Part shown: in pieces, positions 44,801 to 62,864 of the stretch | Layout of the letters: each line of letters begins with the position of its first letter | Position numbering within the stretch: the stretch's first letter is position 1 | Assembly (NCBI GenBank): GCA_037783545.1 | Contig: JBBELK010000298.1 | Location: forward strand, 5,146,001 to 5,210,000 | From: Henricia sp. BOLD:AAB3569 | Lineage: Eukaryota > Echinodermata > Asteroidea > Spinulosida > Echinasteridae | Reading direction: 5' to 3' | DNA length: 64,000 nt | Translations under genes and position numbers: made by a program | Notes under the pieces: model-generated | What the model was told of the DNA's origin: nothing | The model's database searches: none | The model's input: only the letters and a program-made list of their open reading frames with translations

Positions 44801-47152
44801 TATGATGTGCGCCACAGAGTGCATGACGCAAGCCACATAGTACATTTGTATACCCGATCCACTGAGAACGAGTATTTAAAACACCTCGCCAAGACCAGGA
44901 AAACGCTTATGGATTTTTTAAACGTGGTACATTTGACAAAGCTGAAATTTCTTTGGATAAATTTGTTAGGCCAAAAAAAAGAAAGTCTCCGGTTTCTGGT
45001 ATGCGCGCGCGTCGCCCTAGCCATGCGCGTCGGCAAAATGAAAAAGTTTTTTTTTAAAATGTAAGACGATGACTCAAAACTGCCAAACTCACTGGTTCGT
45101 CTAGAATTCTGCTGCTGCACAATTTGAACGTGTATTTAGATGGGGTTACCATCGAGTATATGCTTTATGTGACCTGTCTGGGCTTCCATATATTTTGCAC
45201 AGAATAGTCGGGCACCATTTGCAGACGGCGTTGTATTTTCGTGATTTTGTGTATAGAAGCCAGACGTGAGTGGAAGCGAAGGTCGTGTATCTGGAACTTG
45301 TAACCGCTTTTAATAACTGCAATATGTAAGGGAGCAGACTAATACCAGCATTGCGGCACACATGTGCACGATGTCGAAGTCGCGGTACAGTCTGACGTTG
45401 TTTTCTTGATTAAGTTGCCCATCATTGCCAGGATTATTTATTTTAAGTTTGTTTTATGTGGAGTGCAATAGAATAAATATTACTATGAGGTGAACAAATT
45501 GTTGGAAATGGAAAATATTTTATTCTTCACCCCATAGGAATATTCCTTCTGCATGACATTCGGTTTGCAGTTTCAACTCAACAAGTTTCCCATTTTGACT
45601 TGTGAAATAAAGAGTATACAAGAGACAGATCATACTTTGGCATTTTTATTTATTCTCAACAAACATTAGATGCCACAACATGTCCATGTATATTTTCACT
45701 ATTAATCCAACATTCTTGCTCTTTTTATATGCCCCCAGTTGTCCATTCATTACACATGTATTACAAAGTGGCTTATTCGTGCATCTCATAGCAGGGTCAC
45801 ATGTTATGTAGCCCAAACACACCTGTTTGGAAGGGAAAAAAAGTAGAGAAAAAAAAAAAAAAAAGCCGCATCGCCGCACCACTTTTGGGGCAAGCTCCAT
45901 ACCAGAAACCGGAGACTTTTTTTTTTTGGCCTTATCTTTCTTTTGATTTATAATGGTTTTATTCGCATAATCGCTCAAAAACAGATCATCTACAGGGCCT
46001 TTAAGGTTACGGTCTCCATGAAATAGCCGGAGCAACCATAAGCACAAAATTGGTTGCTAAACAGCGCCATAAAATTGGCCCCAGTTGGCCACATTATTAG
46101 AAAGGTTGCATTAGCATAAATACATTGTATGCGTGGTGTTTGTACCAAAGACGGGTGGCCACTATGTTTGGTGGCCTCTTTATCGAGGTGAGCAGGTTTG
46201 ACTGCACTTCAAAATGTGTTTGGCTGTATCAAACCTTGTGTACATTTGCAAAGGTTGATTGGATAAAATGATAAACACTGCCAGTGAATGCATACAACTT
46301 TTTTACTCAAATTCACAAAAACCAAAAAGAGTTTAACTAAAGTCTTTTAAGCATTTTTTTCTTTGAACACATCAGGCATATGCTTTGCATTTTTTGCTCG
46401 CATTTTGCATTTCGCTGGCAATGTTTCTCATCCAATTCCGTGAGCCTAAAGCAAATGTACGCGGGGTTTAATTTCTGACAAGGAAAAACATTAAAGTTCC
46501 TGAGACCTAATTTTCATCCCCGAAACTCATGGCTTCTGGTGCCTGTACGTATGTATAGAGCAGTTTTATGCTGTTGCGGTTCACTAAACATCTCCCGTGT
46601 TTGTCCTCCACATTGGGAAGAGAACAATGCTTTTATGCAAGCAGCCACATGCGTTTCTGCAAGTGGCTCTATTGTTCTCTCCCCGATCTGGAGGACAAAC
46701 ATGGGAGGGTTTAGTGACCCGTGACAGCTTGAAACCGCCGAAACTATATGGACATGTATGTACAAATGTATGTTGCTCATTGCAATTATGAAATGTCTAT
46801 TTTCCCACAGAAACCTCCCACTGCCGATTCCATTAGTGGTGCACCAATGGCTACAAGCCGTGAACCCACCGTCCCAGGTTCGATTCCCACCAATGCCACA
46901 ACGGCTACAGGTTTGATGCCTCTCGAGGACAAGCGCCAGCTCTTCCAGGAGAAGGTGCGACTCAGCAACGAAGCCTGCCAAAATGCAGACTTTGAGCGAG
47001 CAATACGATTGTACACGGAAGCGTTGGTCCTTGATCCGGCCAATCACATTCTCTATAGCAATCGATCGGCGGCGCACATAAAACTGAAGCATTATGAAAA
47101 GGCACTGCACGATGCGGCTAAAGCAAGGGAGCTCAACCCAAAATGGTCAAAG
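23798..47152 (+). CDS. TTC28: TTC28-like TPR protein, first two coding exons (rest not seen)
   Basis: Join of 23798-23830 and 46811-47152 (125 codons). The second exon is certain by content: VRLSNEACQNADFERAIRLY, then DPANHILYSNRSAAHIKLKH and KARELNPKWSK form TPR helices very close to the N-terminal TPR of TTC28, a large TPR protein with a C-terminal CHAT-like domain linked to midbody and cytokinesis in mammals (family knowledge). The exon stops at NPKWSK with donor AAAG|GTAAGT, phase 0. I infer the first exon from a strong-context ATG (ACCATGG) and donor AAG|GTAGGT in the same phase, 23 kb upstream. Alternatively, translation starts at ATG 46847. No later exon of this gene was found up to 64000, so the next intron would be large, or the copy is incomplete. 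Other TPR proteins cannot be fully excluded. Confidence 0.7.
24329..24980. mobile_element. Element C: PIF/Harbinger-like MITE filled with a GC-rich minisatellite
   Basis: The ends TGCACCTGTCAATTGTAATC and GATTACAATTGACAGGTGCA are perfect inverted repeats extending into CCGGCCCCGGG. TTA lies directly on each side (24326-24328, 24981-24983), the target duplication usual for PIF/Harbinger. The interior (about 24410-24880) is tandem 50-60 bp units built on CCCCGCTATACCGGGACAAT and AGCGGGGACATAGCCGGGG. Confidence 0.9.
24988..25449. mobile_element. Element B: foldback transposon with a 9-bp target duplication
   Basis: The ends TAGCTAAGATAATCTCAGCT and AGCTGAGATTATCTTAGCTA extend into arms of about 100 bp (TGATAAAGCAAGAGC; CATCCCAATG; GAACATGAACACGCTATC). 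ACTTATGCC follows the right end (25450-25458). The left copy is split by element C into ACTTA and TGCC. A 9-bp duplication suggests Mutator-like or hAT relatives. Confidence 0.85.
25601..25697. repeat. 97-bp near-perfect palindrome
   Basis: Arms TAGACAAGGTAATACCTCGG and CCGAGGTAACCTTGTCTA, continuing inward through GAATTTTTTCATATGGTAATC. The loop is only a few bases. Confidence 0.9.
25720..28600. other. AT-rich intron DNA, few features
   Basis: No gene recognised. Two PuTTTCAC-type pieces at 26097-26125 and 26215-26245 (GCAGCCGATTTCACG / CGTGAAATCGACTGCAG) form a weak MITE. Possible small exons near 27530-27590 (GCTTCCACAG acceptor, TACG|GTAACT donor) are too short to support. Confidence 0.35.
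28606..28905. mobile_element. GCAACT-rich MITE, copy 1
   Basis: It begins GCCTAGCGTACTTCGACATT and is built almost wholly of GCAACT/AGTTGC words in both orientations (GCAACTGGAAGCAACT, TCAGTTGCTGTCGATGTG). A second start (GCCTAGAGTACATCGAC) at 28768 suggests two elements side by side. Confidence 0.8.
28905..29225 (-). mobile_element. CATTGGACTT-type TIR element (family M), partial
   Basis: Contains AAAAGTCCAATGCGGACACA and AACAAGTCCAATGCAGACAC plus text shared with 41459-41868 and 62865-63260 (GCGCATGCTCTTCCACGATC). Confidence 0.7.
29836..30310. mobile_element. MITE with AATTCCCAAAATTAGGGGTC ends (family H)
   Basis: The ends ATGGGTAATTCCCAAAATTA and TAATTTTGGGAATTACCCCT are long inverted repeats, continuing through GGGGTCCAAAA / TTTTGGACCCC. 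Relatives: 42343-42590 and a truncated copy at 55466-55596. Confidence 0.85.
30388..31397. mobile_element. TIR element with GTGCTTGTGCCGTGTCGAAT ends (family G)
   Basis: The left end GTGCTTGTGCCGTGTCGAAT and right end ATTCGACACGGCACAAGCAC are inverted; inner copies of CGACGTTTGAAAC lie near 31190 and 31385. The middle contains an ATG frame starting MADTCKSCARVMNV (30966) that meets a GTAAGT at about 31034, a possible captured exon but weak. Confidence 0.75.
31420..31785 (-). mobile_element. Possible retroelement 3' end
   Basis: A TTTATTTATTTTATTTATTT tract followed by text running to about 31680 reads on the minus strand like the AAATAAAT-tailed 3' end of a LINE or SINE. No protein remnant was identified. 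Confidence 0.35.
31790..32780. other. Intron DNA, no recognised feature
   Basis: Short open frames only. An open stretch ending in TTTTCAAATAAAGG near 32160 looks like a terminal exon with poly(A) signal but has no homology I know. Confidence 0.3.
32784..33232 (-). mobile_element. AGGCTTGGG-type element, copy 2
   Basis: The ends TAGGCTTGGGCGATTCCA and TGGAGTCCCCCAAGCCTA are inverted, rich in GGAATCGATTCC words. The interior (CCCAGTGATAGCTTGC) matches 16780-17622 reversed. Confidence 0.8.
33373..33801. mobile_element. CCCATTGGACT-type TIR element (family N), copy 1
   Basis: The left end AGTGGTGTTCCCATTGGACT and right end AGTCCAATGGGAACATGCCT are inverted, with TAA directly outside both. The interior holds repeated mini-modules such as CTTTCCGC, GCGGTAACTTC and TTTACTGCAAGGTCGCGGTA. 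Confidence 0.85.
34150..34382 (+). CDS. Possible exon 1 of 4, unrecognised Cys-rich protein
   Basis: Acceptor TTCTTCTTGTATTTGGCCAG, donor TTCTG|GTAAGG; 77 open codons, phase 2 in, phase 0 out. It contains VCVCWECQTDGCFDSFF, CVLVSCQTWPC, CIGNC and DLIVVDGPGNVL. Another frame of the same DNA is also open, so chance is possible. It forms a phase-consistent series with 37055-37144, 37614-37716 and 37794-37860. I do not recognise the product. Confidence 0.3.
34487..34690. mobile_element. Partial AAGGCCTTTTCACAC-type element, copy 1
   Basis: TTAAGGCCTTTTCACACTAT leads into GTGTCGAAATCTACACGGTT; the same text recurs at 35163-35290. A matching right end was not clearly found. Confidence 0.6.
35163..35290. 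mobile_element. Partial AAGGCCTTTTCACAC-type element, copy 2
   Basis: AAGGCCTTTTACACTACGTA then TCGTGTCGAAATCTACACGG, matching 34487 onward in direct orientation. Confidence 0.6.
35466..35870. mobile_element. TIR element with TTTCCCCACTAGA ends, TAA target duplication
   Basis: The left AGGACTTTCCCCACTAGA and right TCTAGTGGGAAAAGGCCT ends are inverted with TAA outside each. The interior is rich in GGGGCGA and CCCCAGGGCC words. 41230-41400 carries related text (GGGGCGAGTTCAACCCTG). Confidence 0.8.
36026..36692. mobile_element. CCCATTGGACT-type TIR element (family N), copy 2, composite
   Basis: Begins GGCGTGTTCCCATTGGACTT; further ends at 36508 (CTGTTCCCATTGGACTTTTC) and 36671 (AGTCCAATGGGAACACCACT) show one element inserted beside or in another. 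Internal modules match 33373-33801 (GCTAATTCTCCGTGCGTC). Confidence 0.8.
37055..37144 (+). CDS. Possible exon 2 of 4, unrecognised Cys-rich protein
   Basis: Acceptor ACTGCTTATTGCAG, donor ACAAAG|GTTAGT; exactly 30 codons with no stop, phase 0 at both ends, containing QIGLETIYEIKSCFTAGKLL. The other two frames have stops. Confidence 0.3.
37614..37716 (+). CDS. Possible exon 3 of 4, unrecognised Cys-rich protein
   Basis: Acceptor CAATTTGGCAGAG, donor GTGCG|GTACCT; phase 0 in, phase 1 out. It encodes RMICDSCDPG, then YTTCSSCTKPF and GYMC: two CxxC pairs spaced like a zinc ribbon. Confidence 0.28.
37794..37860 (+). CDS. Possible exon 4 of 4, unrecognised Cys-rich protein
   Basis: Acceptor CCTGACATTCCAG, donor GGCTAG|GTACGT; phase 1 in, phase 2 out. 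It encodes ILLNDYFNMDHGLEVGDINV. No convincing continuation was found; two alternative acceptors near 38020-38055 give open but different frames. Confidence 0.28.
38763..39061 (-). mobile_element. tRNA-derived SINE, head truncated
   Basis: Starts with (TTTA)n tail, then reversed body shared with 8403-8771 (TTCCGAAGGACGGAACAAGT; CTTGCTCAAGAGCACAGG). It stops at CACGGCCCGG where family R begins. Confidence 0.88.
39062..39339 (-). repeat. Interspersed repeat family R, copy 2
   Basis: Reverse-complement relative of 6355-6622. It abuts a broken SINE, so the junction marks an insertion or deletion. Confidence 0.7.
39340..39717. mobile_element. CCCATTGGACT-type element (family N), copy 3, decayed
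   Basis: Contains GGAGAATTAGCGTCCCTGTA, TTTACTGCAAGGTCGCGGTA and right end AGTCCAATGGGAACATACCT followed by TAA. The left end is eroded. Confidence 0.75.
39797..40310 (-). repeat. Composite hairpin element E, copy 2
   Basis: Hairpin 39797-39958 (GTTAAAAGTAGGTTTGGCCA / TGGCCAAACCTACTTTTAAT) followed by the body to GTATTTATGAATAATG at about 40310, the reverse arrangement of 4283-4848. Confidence 0.85.
40600..41078. repeat. ACTCGAGT / CTTGACTTGA minisatellite
   Basis: Tandem units of about 28 bp (CTTGACTTGACTTGAGACTC, GAACCTCA) at 40617-40790 and degenerate units at 40945-41078 (CTTGACTTGGGACTCGA) flank unrelated DNA. The GACTCGAGTGGACTCGAGTC start suggests the expanded interior of an inverted-repeat element. 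Confidence 0.8.
41105..41230. repeat. Polycytosine tract
   Basis: About 125 bp of C runs broken by single T residues. The minus strand is G-rich with G-quadruplex potential. Long Pro- and Gly-rich frames here are artefacts of composition. Confidence 0.95.
41459..41868. mobile_element. CATTGGACTT-type TIR element (family M), full copy
   Basis: The left AGCCGTGTCCTCATTGGACT and right AAGTCCAATGCGGACAGGCC ends are inverted, with TTA on both outer sides. Relatives: 28905-29225 and 62865-63260. Confidence 0.85.
42272..42641. repeat. 370-bp hairpin with family H arms
   Basis: The outer arms GTGTGTATGGGTTTACGGTA and ACCATAAACCCATACACAC surround a family H element (AAATTAGGGGTCCAA / TTGGACCCCTAATTT). 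Confidence 0.85.
42780..43050 (-). repeat. Interspersed family K, reversed copy
   Basis: Contains AAAATGGATTTCATTCTAAA, AAAATACCTCCCCAAAATAC and AACCAAATAAATTAGTTTAC, the reverse of 9890-10170 and 21935-22255; ends CTCCTTTAA. Confidence 0.7.
43075..43242. mobile_element. MITE with TTAGAACGAAAAGC ends
   Basis: 168 bp with inverted ends TTAGAACGAAAAGCACGCAT / ATGCACGCTTTTCGTTCTAA and inner complementary CATTACATGC / CATGTTTGTAATG. Confidence 0.85.
44043..46205. mobile_element. Large pogo-type non-autonomous element with nested insertions
   Basis: The left end CAGTGAAACTTGTTTATAAT...GGCCACC and right end (reversed) CAGTCAAACCTGCTCACCTC...GGCCACC resemble pogo/Tigger termini. Inside are an element E body relative (44144-44360) and a TTA-flanked element (44969-45931). 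No transposase was identified. Confidence 0.55.
44969..45931. mobile_element. PIF/Harbinger-like element, GGCCAAAAAAAAGAAAGTCT ends, TTA duplication
   Basis: The ends GGCC-A(8)-GAAAGTCTCCGG...CTGGTATG and the reverse are inverted over about 35 bp. TTA lies directly outside both (44966-44968 and 45932-45934). The interior has short frames with no recognised domain. Confidence 0.8.
46210..46800. other. Intron upstream of TPR exon, weak inverted repeat
   Basis: 46582-46720 holds facing CTCCACATTGGGAAGAGAAC and GTTCTCTCCCCGATCTGGAG text, a small decayed palindrome (CACTAAACATCTCCCGTGTT / AACATGGGAGGGTTTAGTG). Otherwise nothing recognised. Confidence 0.5.
46811..47152 (+). CDS. TTC28: TPR exon of TTC28-like gene
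   Basis: Acceptor TTTTCCCACAG, donor TCAAAG|GTAAGT, 114 codons, phase 0 at both ends. The first 40 codons are Pro/Ser/Thr-rich. From residue 41 come the TPR helices VRLSNEACQNADFERAIRLY, ILYSNRSAAHIKLKHYEKAL and AAKARELNPKW. Confidence 0.85.
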
Positions 47153-47572
47153 GTAAGTTTCAGTATTCCAGTGTATGCTTGTGTGGAAAATATCTGTTAT
47201 CTTGTACATGCACCCTGTAAAATTAGACTGAATAGCACGGCACAATAATGACGGCACGACTGTTGCACGCATGCTTCAAAAAACCGGAACTCAGACACTT
47301 TCCATCATTTTCCGTTGCAAGGGATGGTACGGTACAAATTGACAGGACTGACAATGACAACAATTTTCACCCTCGGAATAGCGACGAGTATACGAGGGCT
47401 GAGGTACAGTGAGTTTACATTTGCACAAAAAGTGCAATTTTCCATCCGTTTCAAGACCGTTTTTCCATTACCGGTACTTGGCTTGCGTGATGATCCCGCA
47501 TAGTATCGCAGCATGTACAGTAATTGATGTCAATACTTTGTGTATTTTGCTTCACATGCGTCACTTATGCTA

Positions 47573-50423: not shown

Positions 50424-50477
50424 GGGAGTAGCAATGCTCCTACTGGTACAGTACTGTATGTACATGTACGTCGTTAC

Positions 50478-51152
50478 TTACGGCAATCCTTAACCCCGAG
50501 ATACCCTGGGGCAGTTTGAGCGTTTCCACTACTCTTTTTCCGCCCCGGGTTAAGACAAAAAATTTGGCCGTTACCACAGGGTTCGTTAACCCTGCCAGTG
50601 ACCATGGTTAAGGATGGCAATCTCCGGGTTAACAGCCAAACCCCGGGGTTATCATTGTAGTGGGAAACCAAGCAGGGTTAAGTGTTCACAGGCAATCTCG
50701 AAGGTTAGCGCACGCTGCGCTTGCACGGATCATATACGTACGTACGTGCACATTTTTGCTCTCCCAATAAGGCGTGACTTCTCAAGCACCGTAATACCGG
50801 TATCTCAATTCATAATGAAAAGAAGAGGACAAAGCCGTGGAAAGAAGAAGAAATAAAGCTCCTTCTCCAGGTCTGGTCGATAGACAAGTTCAGTAACAAC
50901 TCGATGGGACTACTCGAAAATCGGAATAATATGTTTGCAGATTTCCGTTCCTCCAGTCCCTACATACAGATATGCCCGCATCTAGTGGGAAACCTCACTG
51001 CGCTAACCCGGGGCAAGCTCACCCTGGGTTTAGCGAAACTCCGGGTTAAGGAAACAAATAGGAACATAACTCGAGGTTAACGAACCCCGGGTAAGAAAAG
51101 CTTAACCCGGGGCGGCAAATCTCCGGGTTAAGCAGTTTGTAGTAGGAAAAGA
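50478..51152 (+). mobile_element. CCGGGTTAA-type element carrying a Myb/SANT-like fragment, copy 1
   Basis: Dense CCGGGTTAA / TTAACCCGG words at both sides (50490-50680 and 50990-51140) and AGTGGGAAAC / TAGTAGGAAAAG edges mark the element. In the middle (50814-50944) a + strand frame encodes RTKPWKEEEIKLLLQVWSID and ENRNNMFADF. Confidence 0.75.
50814..50944 (+). pseudogene. Myb/SANT-like DNA-binding domain fragment
   Basis: The frame reads KPWKEEEIKLLLQVWSIDKF then MGLLENRNNMFADF, matching the W-x(2)-EE-x(3)-LL-x(2)-W helix and the RN-x(2)-hydrophobic helix of Myb/SANT-like (MSANTD/PIF accessory) domains. No start or full-length protein is present. Confidence 0.65.
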
Positions 51153-51159
51153 CATACTG

Positions 51160-53845
51160 TACATGTGTCTGTCTGAGCAAAGTGCCTTGTGGTACAATGT
51201 ACATATCACTTAAAAATTCAATTTCCATCCTGAATTATTTACCCTACCGGGTACATGTAACATGTACTTGTACCATACATGTATGTACAAGTACGGTACG
51301 CGCTATTTAATCTATAAAAGAATGGCCCTCAATTCATTTTTTGACACTTATTGTGCAATAGGACTACTGGTACATGTACATGACTGTTTGGTGCCGTTTT
51401 TGTTCCTTTATGTTCACTATACAGTACACTTTGACATGCATTGACAAGATCATTTCATCACACAAAGAAATCCACAATGTCCCCTGTACCCCCAGAAAAT
51501 GGAGTGAAAACCCAGCGAGTTATTGCTCACTCCGCTTTTGACCTTCAGAATTCTCCAGAGAACCCATTGTTTCCAGTCAAATGGAGTGACTTTTTTAAAT
51601 CGGTGTGAGTCCGTGGCGCTCCATTAGAATGCTCCAGCAGGCGCTTTGAATAGACGATTTCGGGAGTTGCCCGGGTCAATCGCTTCAAAGCTGTTTATCC
51701 ACCAGGGTTCGTGTCTCGACAGCGTTCTAGCGTTGTTGTTTGGGGGTGGGGGGGGGGGTTACTGTTCTGTTTCACTGTTGGGAATTCGCCACAAAGGAGC
51801 CAGATTCTTTTTATTATATTGTCAGTTTACTGTTAGGAATTGCACATTTTTTCTTCAATTATTTCTGCTGGGATGCACTGCTACCATTTCCTCCTATAGC
51901 TCACCCGCTCAACCCTCCTGCTACCGGTACCGTACATTTACCTACATGTACAGCATCCCTTCTCAAGGCTTCTGCTGTTTTTTAAATTACTTTGTGTAAT
52001 TCTGCCCGATTACTTGAGTTACCATTTTGAACAAACCTATCAGATTATAAATGTAACTTGCATAAATTATGCTAACATGTGTGTTAGGCCTGCGTCGTGT
52101 AACAGGGGGTTTACCCTGGGGGAAGCCCCCAGAAGATGCAAAACGAACGACACAGGGTTTCGCTTTGAATTCTGGCAACACAGGTCAAAGGTTGTTGACG
52201 GGTGGGGCTTTATAAATGCTGTTATCGTGACTCACGATGAAAAACGAAGCCGCGGGGCCACGCAAAAATAGTTGCCCTAAAGTACCGCAATAAACTTTGT
52301 CAAGACATTTACTGATTAAGCAAAATGTATTTACAGCCCTGTTCCCTCGTATTTTGTGTCATAAATCTGTGTTTTTCTTCGTACTCGCGTCGCGATTCCA
52401 AACTGTCCGCCGTGTTTTACTACTCGTGGTTACTAGGTGATGTCATTACACCGAGCCTTACACCAGAGACCCGCCCGTGAGCTCGGGCAGTGGTGGCTGC
52501 CACCGGGACAGACTCGTGTATCACGTAATGGCTAAAAGAACGATCCGGTGTAAGTTGGTGTTACACTGTCTATTAGCATCTCAAACGCCCCTATAATAGG
52601 CCTAATATCAATGACTGTGTACCAGTCCATTATTGTTATACTGGTACAAAGAACCAAAAAATTATGACCCATATTACAAGGCATCGCGGCGATTGCCAAG
52701 TCAGGTTTTAAGTGGGTCATACATGTACATTTTGTTTAACAATAATATATGGGTTGCACTTGTTTGAAACAAGACTTTTGTTTTCTTGGGGATACAAAAG
52801 TATGTACTGGTAGTACATACATAAAGCCATGGTTTTTCCCAACTACATGTACCGGTAGTGCAAAGCGCAAGCTTATAAATGCTTTGGATAACTTGCATTC
52901 ATTCATTTTTACTTGTGTTAAACGATCGCTAATTTTTTCGAGACCTTTTTAAAATACCAAAGAACTTTTTAGAAGCATGTCTCGGATCTTTTTAAAAGGT
53001 CACCCCGACCAGTCCTGTTAGTATTTCTGTGTTGCCCTTTTTGGCTTGAACTGAGATTGAACTTGTGGCGATGTTCCTCCATTTATTCTAAATGGAACAG
53101 AAGAAAGAAAATACTGCTCGAACTAATCCTTAGTTACGCGTGACGAATTTCCAATAAAATTCTGGTATGACGAACATAAGGATATTGCTACAGTATCCTG
53201 AAGCCAGATTGTGTAATAGGGTAAACATTTCTTTGTAAATGGTAGGTGTTTTTTGATACAGAATGGAATCCAAGGAAATATTTTGCACGGTGCGCGGTTT
53301 CGGTTTTTGACGTGCTTTTGAAAGGTTTTTTATGGTTTTAAAATTTTGAGAATTGCATGGCCTGCTTTATCTTCCTTTCCACAGGTATTCTTCACCATTC
53401 CAGAAATAGCCTTTTGACAAGAATTTTTTACTGGTTTATTTACAAAAGTGGTAATGTACGAAGGACAATTTGACCAGTTGACTGAATTTGGTAACTGGCG
53501 AGATCCTCTGTACATCCGCCATTAGTTGGGGCTTCCAGTGCATGAACTGTACGTTGTGTGTTGGTGTGACAGTGTGTGAACCGTTGCATTTGTAAAAATG
53601 CGTATGCCAAAGGATGCGCACTGTTCGGTTCAGCAGAAGTACACAATGTTTAGTTCAAGCCTTTTAATCCCCGGCTTACACAATTCATACTACATGTATA
53701 TTACATTGTACCTCTGCCCAAAATGAATTGACAAGTCACGTTTACCAAACTACGGTACATGTATTTTTATCAAACCATTGTAATCATGCATACGTTTTTA
53801 TGAACTGTACAACATTTGAGGTCTTCACAAACGTCATTGTGTTGA
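51160..53845. other. Intron or intergenic DNA, few features
   Basis: 52085-52200 resembles 62660-62745 (GATGCAAAACGAACG, TTTGAATTCT), an old repeat. 52448-52560 has a weak inverted pair (TTACACCGAGCC / CGGTGTAAG). No gene recognised. Confidence 0.4.
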
Positions 53846-53850
53846 AAATT

Positions 53851-54361
53851 TAAGCCTAGCGTACATGTACACGTACATAGACATTGCAACTGGAAGCAAC
53901 TTGTGGCAACTGGTGTTTCTGGCAACTGGGAGCAACTCACAGCGACTGGGAGCAACTCATCAGTTGCTTAAAAAGGTCACGCACTTGCAACTAACTACTG
54001 GCAACTAACTACTAGCAACTAGAAAAATCCCAGTTGCCGCGAGTTGCTCATGTTCTACATTGTACTTTCTGACTACTAGTTGTACCCAGTTGCGGTCAGT
54101 TGCGTTGCCACTGGTTGCTGTCAGTTGCTCGCGTGCATCTGATCACATGTGCGCAAATCGACAGCAACTGCAAGCAACATTTGCTTACAGTTGCTGTGTC
54201 GATGTGCGCGCTCTGGAAATGTAGACATGGCTGGATGCTCCCAATTGCCGCTATAGTTGCGCAAATGATCAGTTGCTGTCAATGAGCGCGCTATGCACAC
54301 ATCGACAGCAACGATACAGTTGTGTTGCTTCCAGTTGCAGGGTCGATCGATCTACATGTAC
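53851..54361. mobile_element. GCAACT-rich MITE, copy 3
   Basis: Starts TTAAGCCTAGCGTACATGTA, full of GCAACTGGAAGCAACT and CAGTTGCTGTC words, ending AGTTGCAGGGTCGATCGAT. Confidence 0.85.
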
Positions 54362-54802
54362 ATGTTCTCAATTTCAAGTGGCACTGGGAAATAAAATACT
54401 ATGTACATGTTGTGTCAAGAGACAAGTTATGGGAGACAAAGTTGAATTGTTAAATCCATTACACAATATGATCAATACTCCCACCTGGCCTTCAACTCCT
54501 GAACATTTGACCTTCATGTTTCAACCACACTTTCAACTATTTAACTGAACCCAAACATGCCATCAAAATCAGAATGTGACAAACAGGAGCTGAGGTATGT
54601 GACATTCATTGCTTTTTATTTATAGCCAAAATTTAGCTGTGGGCTGCTCATCCATTGAATGCCGTTTATCATCATCAGGTACAGTGAAGAAGTTGGCTGT
54701 ATCCTGCCAATAGAGGGCCCCATCACTGTTTTGTGGTGTGACATCAACTGGAGAGGAGTACACACTATACATACTGTACATACGTGTACATGTGTGATGA
54801 CT

Positions 54803-55122
54803 TTTTTGTGTAAAAAAGCTATGTTAGGGCGACATGCTCTATTAGGGCGACAATTTGGTGTCGCCCGAATATTTTTGAGGTTAAAAACCATTTTCTTAGG
54901 TCAAAAAACATTTTTGAGGTTAAAAACCATTTTTTAAGGTCAAAAAACATTTGTTTAGGTCAAAAACCATTTTTATTAGGTCTAGAACCATTTCTCTTAG
55001 GTCTGGAACCATTTTTGGAAGCTTTGGGTAGAGAAATTTGGTGTCAATTTGAGTGATTCTTGCCGAAATTTCAGTGGTCTCTGGGGAAAGGTTTCCCGTA
55101 ATGTCGCCATTTTATAGCATCC
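54803..55122. mobile_element. GTCGCCCTA-type MITE, copy 2
   Basis: Contains TTAGGGCGACA and GTCGCCCGAATA, then six tandem units of about 19-20 bp (AGGTCAAAAACCATTTTT type), ending ATGTCGCCATTTTATAGCAT. Reversed relative to 6848-7155. Confidence 0.8.
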
Positions 55123-55125
55123 AGG

Positions 55126-55165
55126 GTTCTTATTGTTATTATTATTATTATTATTATTATTTCTT
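55126..55165. repeat. (ATT)n microsatellite
   Basis: About ten ATT units at the junction between the GTCGCCC element and a SINE. Confidence 0.95.
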
Positions 55166-55447
55166 TCTGGTATTCATACCGAGGATTCCTCAATAGTGCT
55201 CATTGCACTGTCACTCGCAAGCGTGAGGAAACCCATGAAGAATTAGAATTAGAAATGGTCAGAGACACCCGGGAATCCCCTTGCTCTTCACATAAAAATG
55301 CTCTGGGATCCTTAGAGTGCGTTACCATTACCTAACACACTAGACCAACAGCTTTACATCCCTTTCGAAGGATGGAGCAAGTGTGGTTGAGTGCCTTGCC
55401 CAAGGGCACAGGTACCGCAGCCGGATTCGAACCCGCAACCCCCAGTT
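55166..55447 (-). mobile_element. tRNA-derived SINE, near full length
   Basis: Reversed body with TTACATCCCTTTCGAAGGAT and CCTTGCCCAAGGGCACAGG, then reversed B-box GGATTCGAACCCGCAACCC. The head is cut near the family H fragment at 55466. Confidence 0.88.
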
Positions 55448-55465
55448 TTCACCTTGGAGAACAAA

Positions 55466-55596
55466 ATATTCAAGAAAATGATGCTGTCCCCTATAACCAC
55501 AGGCCACAGTCTATTTTACTGAGAATTTGTGATCATGAGTGGCGATTTTTAAAGCTCAGACAATTTTTGACCCCTAATTTTGGGAATTACTCATAT
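55466..55596 (+). mobile_element. Truncated family H MITE
   Basis: Right half only: GATGCTGTCCCCTATAACCA, then GACCCCTAATTTTGGGAATT, matching 30165-30305. Confidence 0.8.
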
Positions 55597-56341
55597 GTAC
55601 GTATGTATGTATGGTACATGTACAACTCTTTCGTGCATTCCTACATGTACATGAATCCCCACGAAAAAGTTCAATTAATTAAGTTCCTGACCACCCAATT
55701 TTCTGTATTGTTAATATTGTTTACACAACAGTCCCACCCTGGCTGTACTGCTACCCTACAATCACTTTCTGTATACACAACTTGGTCTTTTCTTCACTGT
55801 CATTGTGTTTACAATGTAGGTGTTGGTGGTGGAGTGTCAGTAACCAAGTTTGTATATTTTGTCTGAATGTGCTAAAAGTCGCCAAAGGCACTCCATTGTG
55901 CGGCTGTTAAAATCTTCAATTGGATACAGTTTAGATCCAGGGCTCAGGTACTACATGTACGCGATGGCTACATGTATACCGTATGTTCAGACTACATGTA
56001 GTCGTCACCGTGCGGGGCACTTCTCTAAAAAAAATACTTTATCACCAACACTTAATGTGCCAGTGACAAGGCGATTTTTCCTGGAAAACCACACCCATCC
56101 CCTAGTGACCTATAATTTCAAGAAGCAGCCAATTAATTCGGCCTTGGGCTTGGACCACAGATTTCTATTACCAGCTAGATAAGAAACGACTGTGTTATTG
56201 AATGGCACATCACCGTAACTAGTTGGAACGGGTGTGCGTGTAGCGTGTTTTGTGTTCGAACATAACACTTGCGATCGTCACACACATTGAGAAAATGCGC
56301 ATGCGGGAGGTTTTACATTGTTCGTGTCATTCAATGGGAAA

Positions 56342-56413
56342 GTGCCCAAAATTATGCAAATGAAGGTGCCCAAAATTATGCAAATGAAGGTGCCCCAAAA
56401 TATGCTAATAAGA
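56342..56413 (+). repeat. 24-bp tandem repeat with octamer motifs
   Basis: Three units of GTGCCCAAAATTATGCAAAT-GAAG, the third diverged. Units 1 and 2 contain the POU-type octamer ATGCAAAT (56354-56361, 56378-56385). Confidence 0.85.
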
Positions 56414-56616
56414 AGGCGCTGTTATGCGCGTACGGCATCCATTTCTTATCTACATGTGTAGCTTTTGATGGCTATCTGTGGCTTGGACACACAAACAGTC
56501 TGGCACCCAATCAGCAGGTTACATTTTTACAGAACTGATTAAGGAGGCATGACTGAACTTTTTATCCACACGAAAAAAGCTGTACACGATGAAGTAACAC
56601 GGGGTCTCCCAAGCTA

Positions 56617-57202
56617 CACTACCCATCAAAACTTTGGGAACACCTTGAAGGTTTTAGGTTTTTGAGAAGGAAGTATTATTTTGTTTATTCATAATAAACA
56701 AAGCTATTAAAGCAAACAGAGGTGTAAGGGGTATCTCTGGAGAGAAAGCAGTCATTTGAAGTGCTGTCCATCATGGAATGGCCTGCCCAGTCACCTGATC
56801 TAAATCCCATTGAGCTGCTCTGGGAGGAGTTGGATCGTAAGGTCAGAAAGAAATGCCCAACCAGCCAAGAAAACCTTTGGAGAGTCTTAATAGAGGCATA
56901 TTTCCACTGAATGTTATGATGCAGAGATTGTGTGTAGCTATCATAGCTGCTAAGGGGAAATTATTTGATGGACATCAAGTTTTGCCGTTTTTTTTTGCAT
57001 GCTCTCCAATTTGTTGATAAAGCCCACTGCTGAGGCCGAAGATGGCACTAGAATTAACATGTATGTATTGCTTTTTGTTAGAAAACACCTACATTTGCTT
57101 TCACAAAATTAACATTCACAAAATTAACATTCACAAAATTGTACGTTTTCTTCTGAAAAACCTGAAACTTTCAAGGTGTTTCCAAAGTTTTGATGGGTAG
57201 TG
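56617..57202 (+). mobile_element. Tc1-like transposon, internally deleted
   Basis: The ends CACTACCCATCAAAACTTTG and CAAAGTTTTGATGGGTAGTG are inverted (with TA outside each), about 35 bp long. The interior keeps only the transposase C-terminus (56773-57000). Confidence 0.93.
56773..56910 (+). pseudogene. Tc1-family transposase C-terminal fragment
   Basis: Encodes MEWPAQSPDLNPIELLWEEL, the hallmark WPAQSPDLNPIE-LW segment holding the last catalytic Asp/Glu of the DDE triad. A frame change near 56905 separates it from AIIAAKGKLF downstream. Inactive. Confidence 0.92.
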
Positions 57203-57911
57203 TACATGATGTAGGGGCCTGTGTATGTGTAGTCAAGATGAACCCCAGGTACAACAACAGAAGCTCAAGCCATGTTGTTTCTTCGACCCCTCATGGCCCT
57301 TTTTCACATTTCCTGTTTCTTTACGTAAACATTTACCCAACTTGGGACTGTCCCAGCGTTTTGGAATCATTTAGAAACCCTGAAAGCGGGGATGATTTAG
57401 TGAACTGATGAAACAATTATTACACGTCTTTATGGGCTCTGCAAGTGAATTTGTTGTGAAACTGTGTGTGGTACAATCTGATGATATTAACCTTTTGAAA
57501 AAAAACTGTCGGGTTTGGGGAGCTAAGTGGCGTTTTGATTGTTATAAATAAATTATTTTTGCTGTCTTCTGTGTGTGTAAGTATGTACAGCATGGCTGTT
57601 TTGTGCTCTCCGATTTGAATTTAGCCATGCAGGGATTTTATTCCTTTCCTGGTGTAAAACTTGTTGAGACTAGCTGAATGCCTGTGACTGAAGACAACAT
57701 ATCAGATGTCCCGTGTTGCTATTGACCCAACTATTACAAAGAAACAAAAATTATTCTTCAACCGCAAAAGCAAATAATGTTTATAGCGCTCCTAGTCCTA
57801 CATACATGTACATACTGCACTGCGTTCTGTTGACTTCCCGATTCCGCAATCAGATTAACAGGACGAACTACATGTACACGTAGTCAAAAGTCCATTTTTC
57901 TTCCAGTACGG

Positions 57912-57922
57912 ACAATGGCGGC
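57912..57922 (+). promoter_or_regulatory. YY1/TISU-like ATGGCGGC element
   Basis: ACAATGGCGGC matches the YY1 core. Its ATG (57915) opens a 76-codon frame ending at 58145, directly before the ATG cluster of the exon described next. As at 23665, it probably marks a promoter or start region. Confidence 0.5.
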
Positions 57923-58295
57923 CCTACAGATTACTTTGTTTACGCGCTGCCAGCCTCATCAAAAGTCATTGACTTTATCCAGAAGACTCAAGTTTGTGGA
58001 CAGTCCACGCGTGGCCGAAAGAACAAGTGCAGTCCGGAGGAAAAAAAGTCTGGCATGTGAAAACCAACAGAGGGGGAAAAGTTTTAATAATGGGGGTAAC
58101 ACTATCTTGTTTGAGTCTGGCTGGGTATATTGTCTGCGCGGTTAATGTTACATGGTAATAATGGCAACAGGACATGGAAGACATAGCATGGATGGAGAGA
58201 ATAAACCAAAGCTTGAGGTTTTGGAAGGACCTGGGACGGATTGGGACGAAGACGATTACTTGGGAATCTTTAAACTTTTCATTGAGAGAGGAAAG
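57915..58295 (+). CDS. 5' exon of an unrecognised gene continuing beyond the window
   Basis: After the ATGGCGGC element, a frame opens at TAA 58143 with ATGs at 58152, 58161 and 58188 and runs to donor GGAAAG|GTAGGT at 58295 (phase 0). From 58161 it encodes MATGHGRHSMDGENKPKLEV and DWDEDDYLGIFKLFIERGK. The acidic end before the donor looks like real coding sequence; FKLFIERGK faintly recalls an ankyrin-type helix, but I assign no family. The coding start is more likely 58152-58188 than 57915, in which case the 76-codon frame is an upstream ORF. No acceptor-exon pair in phase was found from 58300 to 64000. An alternative first exon of the TTC28-like gene is possible, since phase 0 would fit its next exon. 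Confidence 0.42.
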
Positions 58296-58299
58296 GTAG

Positions 58300-60360
58300 G
58301 TTGAGTAGTGTTATTCCGTGTGTGAAATTTATAATTTGTCATACTGCAGTTGTAAAAAGTTCTGACAAAATTATTTTGTAGCTTGGGTCTTTGAATGTAT
58401 GTATTGTGTTAATTGACCTGAAAGGTTGAATGATATATCGCTTTCAAGTGTTGGAGGAGCTTTATGGTCCATGATTTATTTAATTGCATACAGTGGCTGT
58501 GTACCAGCGTTCTGCACTACCGGTTTTGTCCGGGTGCACCACCCGGACAAAATTATTAGAGGTACCGTTGACGCCTAGAAATAATTTGCAGTCCGGACAA
58601 CAAACTCAGCTGCCCGGACAAAAATAATCAATTTTTCCCCTCTAAAGCACTTCGAAAGTACAGCCAAGTCATTCCAAAATTAGGTGTAAAGTCACCAAAC
58701 ATGATTCGCTAGCCACTGGTGTTGTTATTGTTCACTTACTTGTACCACGCATACCGGGTATTTATCGCATCGGCGACCCAAACCACGATCCATAACGGCC
58801 ATGGCAGTTGCTTTGCTTGCATTTGTTTTGAACAGCGCCCTCACGCGCCCCAACAAAATATTTAGCAGTGGAGAACACTGGTGTACAGGGTACATGTACA
58901 TGTACATGTACATGAACATGAAATTTCTCTCAATCTTTAAAGGGCCCCTTATTTAGGATTTTTATCAATAAAATCTATGCTTTAAAACCACTATACTCGG
59001 TTACATTCATAAAAATCATATTTGGAGCTTGTTTTGGGGGTTAAAACAAAGGTTTTTAATTTTTATGCTAATGAAATATGCATATTCATGACCAAGGTCA
59101 TGATGTCACAAGAGGCAAACACAGGAAAATCAAATTCAACTGTGCACAAAAGATTCCACCTTTTTTTCTCAATTTACTGAAACTTTTAAAATCCATGGCT
59201 GTTTTAGTTTGTTTTCCATGTTGCCTGCTGTGGGTAGAAACTGCAGCAATTTGCCACAAGTCCAACTTGAGGTCTTATGTTTTTTGTTAACTTTTCCCTT
59301 CTGTCTTCCTTACGTGATGCACTCCAAACAACGCCCTCTGTCTGTGGTTTATTGCAATGAAATCTTCAAAGTTGAAAAGGCTATCTTTTAATTTTTGTTT
59401 CATGTACATCTAAACGAACAATAGTACCGGTATGTCTTGCTGAGTAATCCATCATATTAAGCAAAGCTTAGGCATAAAGTATCTTTTCGGGCGGAATCAT
59501 CACATTTGACAGTTGGAACCACTTCTGTCTTTCATTTGAGTGAGGTTTTTCCTCTAAAATATACCCCTTTCCCACTACAAAATCTCTGGGTTACATGTAA
59601 CTGTGAAATCGAGTGCTACTTGGTTAACTGTGAAATCGAGTGCTACTTAGTGATGGCAAATAGACAACTGAGAATTGGGCTTTCAGTCACAAGTAATGTT
59701 CTTAAACTTGTTCACAGGTAATCACGATACAACAACATACAATTTTATTTAAAAGTTCAAATGCTTGGATAAAAATGCTGTGCATGCTATTTTGTTCAAC
59801 TTTTTCTGGGAGGTTATCTGTTTGTTATTGAGATTTTATCAGACCACATACAAGTATTATCTCTTTGTCCCTGCTTCTCGTGCAGCTATTTCATTTGACA
59901 TAAAAGCATGATTAATAAGCACCCCAAAATAACAGGTCCACATTTTTAGGTGATTTGAATATCTTTATAATGAGGTTAAGGTCCAGATTCAAGTGCTCCC
60001 CTTTTTTCTCTAGTTTCAATAATTTCTACTTTTTGTCAAAAAAATATCGCAGAATCCTTGCGATAGAAAATAAAGTTATCTCTGTCTCGCTGATAAATTC
60101 TTATTTCTCTTGTGAGCACCAAATCTTTTGTAGTCGATAGGATTCTTTTTTTTCTTTTTTTACGCATTTATTTTAAAATAATAGACTGCTCAACTGATTT
60201 GGTTGTTAACGGTCATTGTTGGAAACTTCCCCAAAAGTAGGTTATGCTGATTAGAAATTAGACAGCTAAAATAAATTAGACACTCTATAGACTATAGTCG
60301 ATACTCGTGAGCTGTCCAACCTGTGAAGCAAGATATGCCAGTTTTTCATGTTGTATGAAA
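58300..60360. other. Probable first intron, few features
   Basis: 58885-58915 is (TACATG)n. 59599-59650 is a 27-bp unit (AACTGTGAAATCGAGTGCTA-CTTGGTT) present twice. CCGGACAA words recur at 58530-58625. No exon recognised. Confidence 0.45.
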
Positions 60361-60364
60361 AGTG

Positions 60365-60937
60365 TTAAGCCTAGGGTACGGGTACATCAATGTTGCAGCT
60401 GGAAGCAACTAGTGGGAACTGGTGTTTCCGGCAACTGGAAGCAACTCATGGCTACAAGGAGCAACTTGTGGCAACAAGGAGCAACTCATCAGTTGCTTAA
60501 AGAGGTCGATGTACGCGCACTTGCAACTACTGGCAACTGGAAAAATCTGTTGCTGCGAGTTGCTTATGTTCTACATGTACTTTCTAGCAACTAGCTGTAT
60601 CCACTTGCGGTCAGTTGCGTCGATGTACATGTACACGTACATGTACTTGCAACTAGTTGCTGTCAGTTCCATGAGTGTCATACGTGTGGCGCACATCAAC
60701 AGCAACTAGTTGCTTCCAGTTGCAAGGTCGATGTACCCGAGTTGCTGTGTCGATAGGTGCGCTCTTGAAATTATACATATACATACATGTACATGTAGAC
60801 ATGGCTAGATGCTCCCAGTTATGCCTGGTTGTCCAACTGATCAGTTACTGTCGATGTGCACACTACGCACAAATCAACAGCAACTGGTAAGTTAAGTTGC
60901 TTCCAGTTGCAAGGCCGATGTACATGTACACTAGGCG
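60365..60937. mobile_element. GCAACT-rich MITE, copy 4 (longest)
   Basis: Starts TTAAGCCTAGGGTACGGGTA, ends GATGTACATGTACACTAGGC. The interior is GCAACTGGAAGCAACT, GCAACAAGGAGCAACT and reversed AGTTGCTTCCAGTTGC words. Confidence 0.88.
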
Positions 60938-60994
60938 AACATAATACAATCTGGAGACTATATACTGGTAGCTAAGATGTGGCATGCAAAGAAA

Positions 60995-61170
60995 ATCATG
61001 ACCTAACACACTGCACCAACTGCTTTACATCCCTTCCGAAGGATGGAGCAATTGTGTTTAAGTGCCTTGCTCAAGGGCACAGGTATGTACCCCAACAGGT
61101 ATCGAACCCGCAACCTCAGGTTTTTAACCCCAGTATTGCGAGTCAGTGACCTAAACCACTCTGCCACAGT
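60995..61170 (-). mobile_element. tRNA-derived SINE, tail missing
   Basis: Reversed body TTACATCCCTTCCGAAGGAT and CTTGCTCAAGGGCACAGG, B-box (reversed GGTATCGAACCCGCAACC) and A-box (CTAAACCACTCTGCCA) are all present. Confidence 0.88.
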
Positions 61171-61673
61171 GTATATGTTGATGTGTGAAAAACATTTGAC
61201 ATTACCCATTTTTAAGGTAGACAAAATATGCTTTTTTTTTCTTCAGAGTCCAGCAATTTGTTGAACCACATTTTGACAAAGCAAATTCCATTGTTTATAA
61301 ATGTTTAAGGAGTTGTGCCACATGTACCTTGCCTACGATAAAGTGACTTTATCTGGTGCTAATGTTCAACATGATGACACACAATGATAGCAAAGATCAT
61401 TTTTTGCTACCTGTGTAACTTTTCAAGTGGTATGCACTTGTGAGATGAATTTAAAGTACATGTAGAGCACGCTAAAGAAACGTAGAATAGCATCCATTCA
61501 TTCCAGAAAGTTTTGATGACATAGCATGACATTACAGAAGCTGGTCTGTCTGCTTACTCATACTGCGTTTCTGAAGTCCTCAAAATGTCTCTTTTACCAT
61601 AGTTGCATTCAAGTAGCCTGAAGTAGCTTACCCCGATATACACAGGGTTTAAATTACACCAGGAAAGCCTCAA

Positions 61674-62662
61674 GAGGCCTTTTCCCACGGCACTTTAACC
61701 CCGAGATGACCCGGGTAACAGAAAAATTTTACCCCGAGATTACCCGGGTTAAGGGTTCGTTTCCCACGGCAAATCTCGGGGTTACGAATTACCCGGGTTA
61801 TCTGGCCAAAAATGCCACTTAACCCGGGTAATTTCTAGCCCTGCTCGGGAGGTGGGTTAACCCACCAATCTCGGGGTTAACGGCGACCTTGAGACGATTC
61901 TCCGGGTTAACGTTTGTCGTGGGAAACGACGACAATAGCCTACCCGGGTAAGCTATTTAGCGAGTTAAATTCTTGCCGCAATAATGATTGGGTCAAAGGC
62001 TGCAAGTGCGCTCGCGCTTGAATAGACTGGTTCCCGTCCCAATGATACGTTCCACAACAACTAAAAGATGTCTGGAGATTACGTAGGGAACGGGAACCAG
62101 TCTAGCGCTTGAATGGCACTGTCAAACTGGTACTCTTCTGAAGGTAGTGTACAACAAAATACGCGTGGGGCCAGTGACAAAGCACACATCGATAAATATT
62201 ATCGATCGCGCGCGTTATTTATTCATGAACGCCCGACTCGACCTGTTGAACCAAGAAAACACGATGGAAAACGCTTCATCAGCTGCAGCAAAGGCTTCTA
62301 AAAGGAACAAAAATTGGACGGATGGAGGAGTTAGAAATCTTGGCCTTGTAAAGGCCTGTGGCAATGAGACAATACAGGACCAGTTGTGTGTGCGTGCGCA
62401 GCCTAATCGATCGATCGATTTACACACGCAATGGTTTCTGGGTATTTGTGCTGATTGGTGTACCCGGGTACGTGCGCATGCAGAAATGCCGTGGGAAAAG
62501 GGTCGCTGTTGTACCCGTGTAAGAGACGACCCGGGTAAGTGCTTCTCCGGGTTAACGCTTGTCGTGTGAAAAGAAACTCCGGGTTAAATGTTACCCGGGT
62601 TATTTACCGCTACCCGGGTAGAAAAGTTACCCGGGTCGGAGGTGGGTAGTGGGAAAAGGCCT
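61674..62662 (+). mobile_element. ACCCGGGTTA-rich TIR element carrying a Myb/SANT-like fragment, copy 2
   Basis: The ends AGGCCTTTTCCCAC and GTGGGAAAAGGCCT are inverted, with possible AAG duplication. Both flanks are packed with ACCCGGGTTA palindromes (61700-61950, 62515-62640). The middle holds a decayed Myb/SANT-like frame. Confidence 0.8.
62264..62396 (+). pseudogene. Decayed Myb/SANT-like domain fragment
   Basis: An ATG frame with SKRNKNWTDGGVRNLGLVKA then CGNETIQDQL resembles the first helices of Myb/SANT-like domains (NWT-x-E-E-x-R-x-L; W replaced by C in GNE-IQ-QL). It reads on without a second half of the domain. Confidence 0.6.
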
Positions 62663-62864
62663 AAGGTGATGCAAAACGAACGCCAGGGGGTTTTGCTTTG
62701 AATTCTAGGAAAAGGTTGTTTCCAGGCGGAAATTTAAAAAACAACTGCCGACTCACAAGGAATACTGGACCAGGTGCCATACGAAATTAGTTAACTCTTC
62801 AACCATCAAATGTTTTGAAGATCGCAGAAATTGCACTATTTTAATGTTTTTTGGCTTCTTGTGG

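Follow-up and report, generated by a model that had tools for sequence, protein, structure and literature searches.

Background

Transposons of the PIF/Harbinger superfamily duplicate 3 bp of their target on insertion (PMC9179366), with a 9-bp extended target preference around the duplication (PMC2836001). PMC2836001 also describes the mPing/Ping system of rice, in which a non-autonomous deletion derivative with both of these properties is mobilised by the transposase together with the Myb-like ORF1 protein. Here we describe two elements of comparable build, E1 and E2, in a 64,000-nt stretch of the genome of a sea star, Henricia sp. (contig C298, positions 5146001-5210000, in an assembly of 740.7 Mb and 2104 contigs); this whole stretch is referred to as the window. 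Very probably E1 and E2 each belong to a family of miniature inverted-repeat transposable elements (MITEs) of PIF/Harbinger type, the two families being distinct, which would have arisen by internal deletion of two-gene parents and been moved in trans.

Two further systems are close. In Medicago, according to PMC2213677, the MtPH-M-3 elements of 776-905 bp are related by internal deletions to a two-gene PIF/Harbinger core and are described as possible emerging MITEs. Animal Harbinger elements, as PMC9179366 presents them, combine a 3-bp target-site duplication (TSD) and terminal inverted repeats (TIRs) with two genes, one for a fast-evolving Myb-like protein. Of these features E2 has the TSD and the TIRs, and two genes, one of them Myb-like, are proposed for the lost parents. 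Unlike mPing, they are longer (about 690 bp for E1, 988 bp for E2), carry dense CCCGGGTTA subterminal words and keep the starts of genes, with no autonomous partner identified. In Medicago the core is known and the group has 10 members, whereas here the core is missing and candidates run into the hundreds. In contrast to animal Harbinger elements, E1 and E2 code for nothing complete, and the orientation of the parental genes is inferred. Our literature search found no paper on Harbinger MITEs with a truncated Myb gene in amphioxus, by which we do not claim absence from print.

Results and discussion

E2 carries the ends and target site of a PIF/Harbinger element

An earlier note on this DNA, made from its letters, had pointed to two word-rich elements near the places where we find them. 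Counts of CCGGGT/GGGTTA in 500-bp bins confirm both, with 7 and 10 words in the bins beginning at 50500 and 51000, and 20 and 14 at 61500 and 62500; a single other bin (from 58500) reaches 3. The bounds needed adjusting: E2 runs from 61675 to 62662 and is flanked by the duplication AAG, and the bounds of E1 were judged by eye (Table 1). Both elements are dispersed repeats. Searches of the genome with the whole-element DNA returned 1226 first-look candidates for E2 and 513 for E1, of which the best 40 were scored for each, so that both are MITEs in the sense of many copies without a complete gene; the counts are inflated, because insertions common to contig pairs (C201/C331, C542/C502, C514/C274 and C1413/C939), with the same or nearly the same flanks, indicate that the assembly holds duplicated or haplotype contigs.

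Table 1. Features of E1 and E2 in the window
Feature	Position	Strand	Remarks
E1, about 688 bp	50468..51155	+	older related family; ends degenerate, placed by eye
E1 Myb/SANT-like frame	50774..50966	+	end approximate; family reading starts ATG, GTG at 50774 in window copy
E2, 988-bp non-autonomous element	61675..62662	+	TIRs AGGCCTTTTCCCAC (61675-61688) and GTGGGAAAAGGCCT (62649-62662)
Left TSD of E2	61672..61674		AAG; flank sequence
Right TSD of E2	62663..62665		AAG; flank sequence
E2 left arm	61689..62202	+	subterminal CCCGGGTTA words; common to 750-790-bp sister except nested insert 62023-62104
Nested mini-element, 82 bp	62023..62104		ends TAGACTGGTTCCCGT / ACGGGAACCAGTCTA; absent from class A copies shown
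E2 middle	62203..62383	+	leader and start of open reading frame; whole at 3 places only
E2 open reading frame from ATG	62264..62386	+	MENASSAAAKASKRNKNWTDGGVRNLGLVKACGNETIQDQL; cut at right-arm junction; Myb-like by eye, not by statistics
E2 right arm	62384..62648	+	common to sisters; minus strand leads into ATG, MADDT in classes A and B

The TIRs of E2 are 14 bp long and exact in the window copy, and the family copies counted differ by at most one mismatch per end. Among 42 copies of the family with both ends readable and distinct flanks, the 3-bp flanks are identical in 24, against 2.5 in shuffles, and at lengths of 1, 2, 4 and above identity falls to chance. The rows were used without further cleaning: of the 18 misses, three (L016, L044 and L060) probably pair the wrong ends, and L004 and L020 probably represent a single duplicated insertion. 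The 24 sites show a preference for the palindromic target CAC-WWN-GTG, with G first after the TSD in 21 of them. Ends of hAT or Mutator type were rejected for E2, since its duplication is of 3 bp rather than 8 or 9. TIRs, TSDs and target, together with the many PIF-type transposases in the genome, make the placement of E2 well supported and bear out the PIF/Harbinger origin that had been suggested; E1 likely belongs to the same superfamily by its build and its apparent Myb-like helper fragment.

The best copies of the E2 family, whose left arms are 97-98% identical to that of E2, are young. The right end of E2 and its flank (62650-62711) match 52117-52178, 10 kb away, at 79% over 62 bases; from this likeness E2 seems to have landed inside another repeat.

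Sister elements share the arms of E2 and differ in the middle

Only three of the 40 scored copies hold E2 whole, namely the window copy and those on C201 and C331, which have common flanks and are one insertion seen twice. The other 37 have no match listed to 62203-62383, the stretch with the frame. Within one and the same pair of arms, the sisters are joined internally in at least four different ways; the arms are on average 95-98% identical between classes.

Class A elements, about 750-790 bp without inserts, join the arms of E2 through a different middle of about 60 bp that on the minus strand begins with ATG and reads MADDT[E/A]TSLAILLLIFRMF. They are 98.5% identical to each other on average; their strict tag is carried by 22 of the 30 loci taken first, and the sequences of L006 and L007 are of the same kind. 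The first 14 bases of the minus-strand start occur 37 times (some loci overlap), with SLAILLLIFRMF kept in 29 and the start broken, shifted or changed in the other 8. In class B (tag in 11 of 30 loci found with an E2 leader/frame probe) the left arm runs further, to CTCGACCTGTTGA, before it is joined to that minus-strand start at an identical base; class A thus seems to derive from class B by an additional deletion. Class C consists of the E2 leader, the DNA of about the first dozen codons and then the right arm from just before the minus-strand ATG (L061, with the ATG changed, and L062). Six loci of the same type, L063-L068, have in addition 4 bases inserted among the codons and, within the leader, 390-680 bp of another inverted-repeat element. 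Class D is E2 itself, with leader, about 40 codons and right arm, and forms one clade with support 0.92 in a tree of 49 rows, five of which repeat a place already represented.

The simplest reading is that a single parent, with its two genes pointing inward from the arms, gave rise to the classes as it lost internal parts step by step, as the earlier note's idea of deletion products would have it for E2 and, likely, for E1. The lost parent of E2 would have carried two genes directed inward, a helper (Myb-like) gene beginning next to the left arm and a transposase gene beginning next to the right. Each derivative would keep the start of one gene, E2 about 40 codons of the helper and the 750-790-bp sister about 19 codons of the presumed transposase. 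Mobility would require the arms only, bound by helper and transposase encoded elsewhere, and the gene fragments themselves probably do nothing.

Several observations weigh against this account. MADDT, which we infer to be the transposase start, was assigned to it only by its position and by what such N-termini usually look like, with no support from a family search. Classes A and B share their inner breakpoint, which makes one deletion event there, not two. Further such points concern the E2 frame, the search for a parent and the ends of E1, and are given below with each.

Smaller insertions and derivatives accompany these elements. The nested mini-element in the left arm of E2 is flanked by a perfect 9-bp TSD, GCGCTTGAA (62014-62022 and 62105-62113), a length that suggests a Mutator-type element, and an insert with like ends occupies another site of the sister element at L006. 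Next to a class A copy at this locus lies a still smaller derivative of 308 bp (about 105-413), which has E2-type TIRs and the TSD AAA. The inserts of L063-L068 have GGCTGCGTTC-type inverted ends and all lie at the same base of the E2 query, which suggests that one nested compound element was probably amplified.

The E2 frame may be the start of a helper gene

The ATG of E2 at 62264 (plus strand) lies inside a 160-aa open frame (62087-62569). We lean towards the view that it is the start of the helper gene, without holding this firmly. By eye, NWTDGGVRNLGLVKACGNETIQDQL aligns with RWSEDEVSKLVAVWGDNEIQKQL in the Myb domain of L085, in register from the first Trp; the frame begins at an ATG behind a leader common to the sisters; and of the six frames of its stretch it scores best against nine Myb domains (35 versus 19-26), taken from the 49 Myb_DNA-bind_4 domains matched in the same genome.

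Statistics do not bear this out, and they count against a helper origin. No Pfam family matches the frame at E<=10, and a home-made Myb profile gives 0.4 bits. In the comparison with the nine domains, 634 of 2000 shuffles attain the best score and 232 of 2000 the summed score. Once the final Leu is included, the counts out of 3000 shuffles become 522, 404, 621 and 1066, depending on which of four gap costs is set; at the first of these costs, 184 of 3000 attain the score against L085 alone. The same DNA also holds a 122-aa frame on the opposite strand. That the E2 frame is not Myb-derived, and is open by chance or of unrelated origin in what is left of a deleted transposon, is an alternative that we rate as somewhat doubtful given its rank among the six frames, its register with L085 and its position behind the shared leader. 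The Myb/SANT-like character proposed for both frames has accordingly passed no statistical test in E2. The earlier note had held that the lack of a profile hidden Markov model (HMM) hit, or absence of the frames from all other copies of the families, would refute its proposal; E2 has no such hit, and its frame is missing from 37 of the 40 scored copies. Searches of PDB sequences with the frames of E1 and E2 gave nothing relevant, and an exact search of the genome for ACCCGGGTTAACCCGGGT gave no match.

No parent was found, and no host donor for E2

PIF-type transposases abound in the genome, with at least 151 matches to DDE_Tnp_4 (606 candidates, 150 scored). All those listed exceed the cut-off, and the open frame around many of them is 400-555 aa long. 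Myb_DNA-bind_4 has 49 matches (103 candidates, all scored). In six cases a Myb and a transposase match are less than 20 kb apart, and in every case the two are convergent; the pairs on C570 and C104 are probably copies of one element and the pair on C315 has a 15.9-kb gap, which leaves four or five independent convergent cases. These pairs agree with the layout proposed for the parent of E2, without showing that parent itself.

The earlier note had suggested looking for a full-length relative with transposase and Myb gene between the same ends. None was found, and what the search returned tells against a two-gene parent. The E2 leader/frame probe (206 bases) gave 34 matches, counted as 28 copies, and the 26 of these examined in stretches of about 3 or 10 kb (all but C485 and C403, two of the weakest) are short elements only. 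The longest of them (L038), whose right arm carries an insert, measures about 2.0 kb, and two (L053 and L056) have the right arm and part of the leader only, with no visible left arm. Two exact-pattern hunts, both for the minus-strand start with another continuation, recovered only sister copies, with one match each, the first lying by position inside sister L012 and the second being a class A copy with a small insertion; such patterns would overlook a diverged parent, or one that continues with the same bases as the sisters. As a candidate parent, a much-repeated family of PIF-type transposases led no further: 601 bases upstream of the domain in one copy (L081) have no similarity to the arms. 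No DDE transposase lies between E2 ends in the elements or copies examined, as expected for a non-autonomous copy, and we therefore file E2 as a PIF/Harbinger-type MITE only.

These searches also bear on the suggestion that pieces of a host MSANTD-like gene were taken up between pre-existing transposon ends (Pack-type capture), which we consider improbable. The 181-bp middle of E2 is low-copy between high-copy arms, as expected of a captured exon, and for 43 of the 49 matches to Myb_DNA-bind_4 no transposase is listed within 20 kb, so that host donors could exist. However, the genome offered no donor for E2: a 41-aa piece of the frame matches at three element places only. In 24 of the 26 copies examined, these arms enclose the probe matches (the exceptions being the two with the right arm only), and the leader with about the first dozen codons recurs in class C with another junction, as it would if it were element sequence. 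Capture of a host exon by E2 was rejected for want of a donor, and we retain internal deletion as the more probable origin of its middle.

E1 belongs to a second, older family with a decayed Myb-like frame

E1 and E2 are at best 59.6% identical over 235 columns, which makes them two distinct families by sequence, and their frames open with different codons (MENASSAAAKAS in E2, MASQAPYIS in E1). On these two grounds we reject one parent for both, and with it the single autonomous transposon that had been proposed as a possible source of both elements. Both frames are present on the plus strand, as the earlier note had it; since such elements insert either way round, this agreement means little. 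The founder of the E1 family would have been a deletion product of a different parent, with about 60 codons left of a Myb/SANT-like helper, and would then have amplified and decayed. The 40 scored copies, query apart, are 79-89% identical over the main match, and the majority extend over almost all of the element. The window copy is too decayed to show a clean TSD, a gap in the case for E1 as a PIF/Harbinger element.

Unlike that of E2, the E1 frame is part of the amplified unit. In the window copy, KPWKEEEIKLLLQVWSIDKF is read at about 50817-50942 (plus strand), the start has changed from ATG to GTG and 7 bp are inserted before KPWKEEEIKLLLQVW; the majority reading of 11 copies is MASQAPYISIHNEKKRTKVWKEEEIKLLIQAWSIDKFSNNSMGLLENRNKMFADFRSSSP. 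The sole Pfam match of this family reading is Myb_DNA-bind_4 (E 0.016-0.033, 15-16 bits), below the cut-off of 27 bits, as are the matches of the window copy. Its 77-aa frame matches only REC1, weakly and as an unrelated family (E 0.067), a 42-aa piece matches REC1 (E 0.057) and Myb_DNA-bind_4 (E 0.069), and shorter pieces match Myb_DNA-bind_4 alone (E 0.056 and 0.048). Of single copies, L075 matches Myb_DNA-bind_4 (E 0.041), L079 nothing and L077 only an unrelated family, weakly. Against the nine Myb domains, the summed and best scores of the window copy are reached by 0 and 12 of 2000 shuffles, and those of the family reading by 1 and 16 of 2000. HMM searches of the two middles have thus given a Myb match below the cut-off for E1 and none for E2, and profile and shuffles together suggest that the E1 frame is Myb-like modestly beyond chance.

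We examined the middles of 10 of the 40 scored copies, the nearer ones. Changes in the frame number 27, 27 and 34 at codon positions 1, 2 and 3, and 24 of the 88 are synonymous (0.27, against 0.24 expected without selection). Indel columns occur in 9 of the 10 copies and stops in several. The frame has drifted freely after amplification, with no constraint. That the fragment was kept because a short Myb peptide acts, for instance by competing with the full helper for the ends, is very improbable and was rejected: the stretch is present in all 10 sampled copies (from the best 40) of an element with 513 candidates, but its even spread of changes, neutral synonymous share, indels and stops are those of neutral decay.

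Other frames of the window

Pfam searches with six other frames of the window found no transposase, only TPR, MYND and one weak unrelated match. The frame RRSIAIENVIGRIKDQRF at 46.5-47.1 kb, faintly transposase-like by eye, has no Pfam match. TPR repeats lie in the frame 46733-47248 (E 1.3e-10) and a MYND finger in 8881-9489 (E 1.9e-4, under its cut-off); we presume that these frames are as in TPR co-chaperone and SMYD-type genes, respectively.

Conclusions

The E2 family offers a clear small case of how miniature elements arise, by an ordinary route. With the same arms around at least four middles, the order of the deletions, and perhaps the gene layout of the missing parent, can be read from the remains. 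Otherwise the biology is standard for PIF/Harbinger MITEs. A bolder and rather unlikely extension is that a single lost two-gene parent seeded complementary miniatures, some with the leader and start codon from its helper gene and others with those from its transposase gene. If the leaders are promoters, two convergent promoters with start codons would be present at hundreds to perhaps a thousand sites; if that is true, such scattered promoters could drive neighbouring sequence and give hybrid proteins starting MENASS or MADDT. Since the best E2-family copies are young, their insertions might be used as markers and to trace promoter donation.

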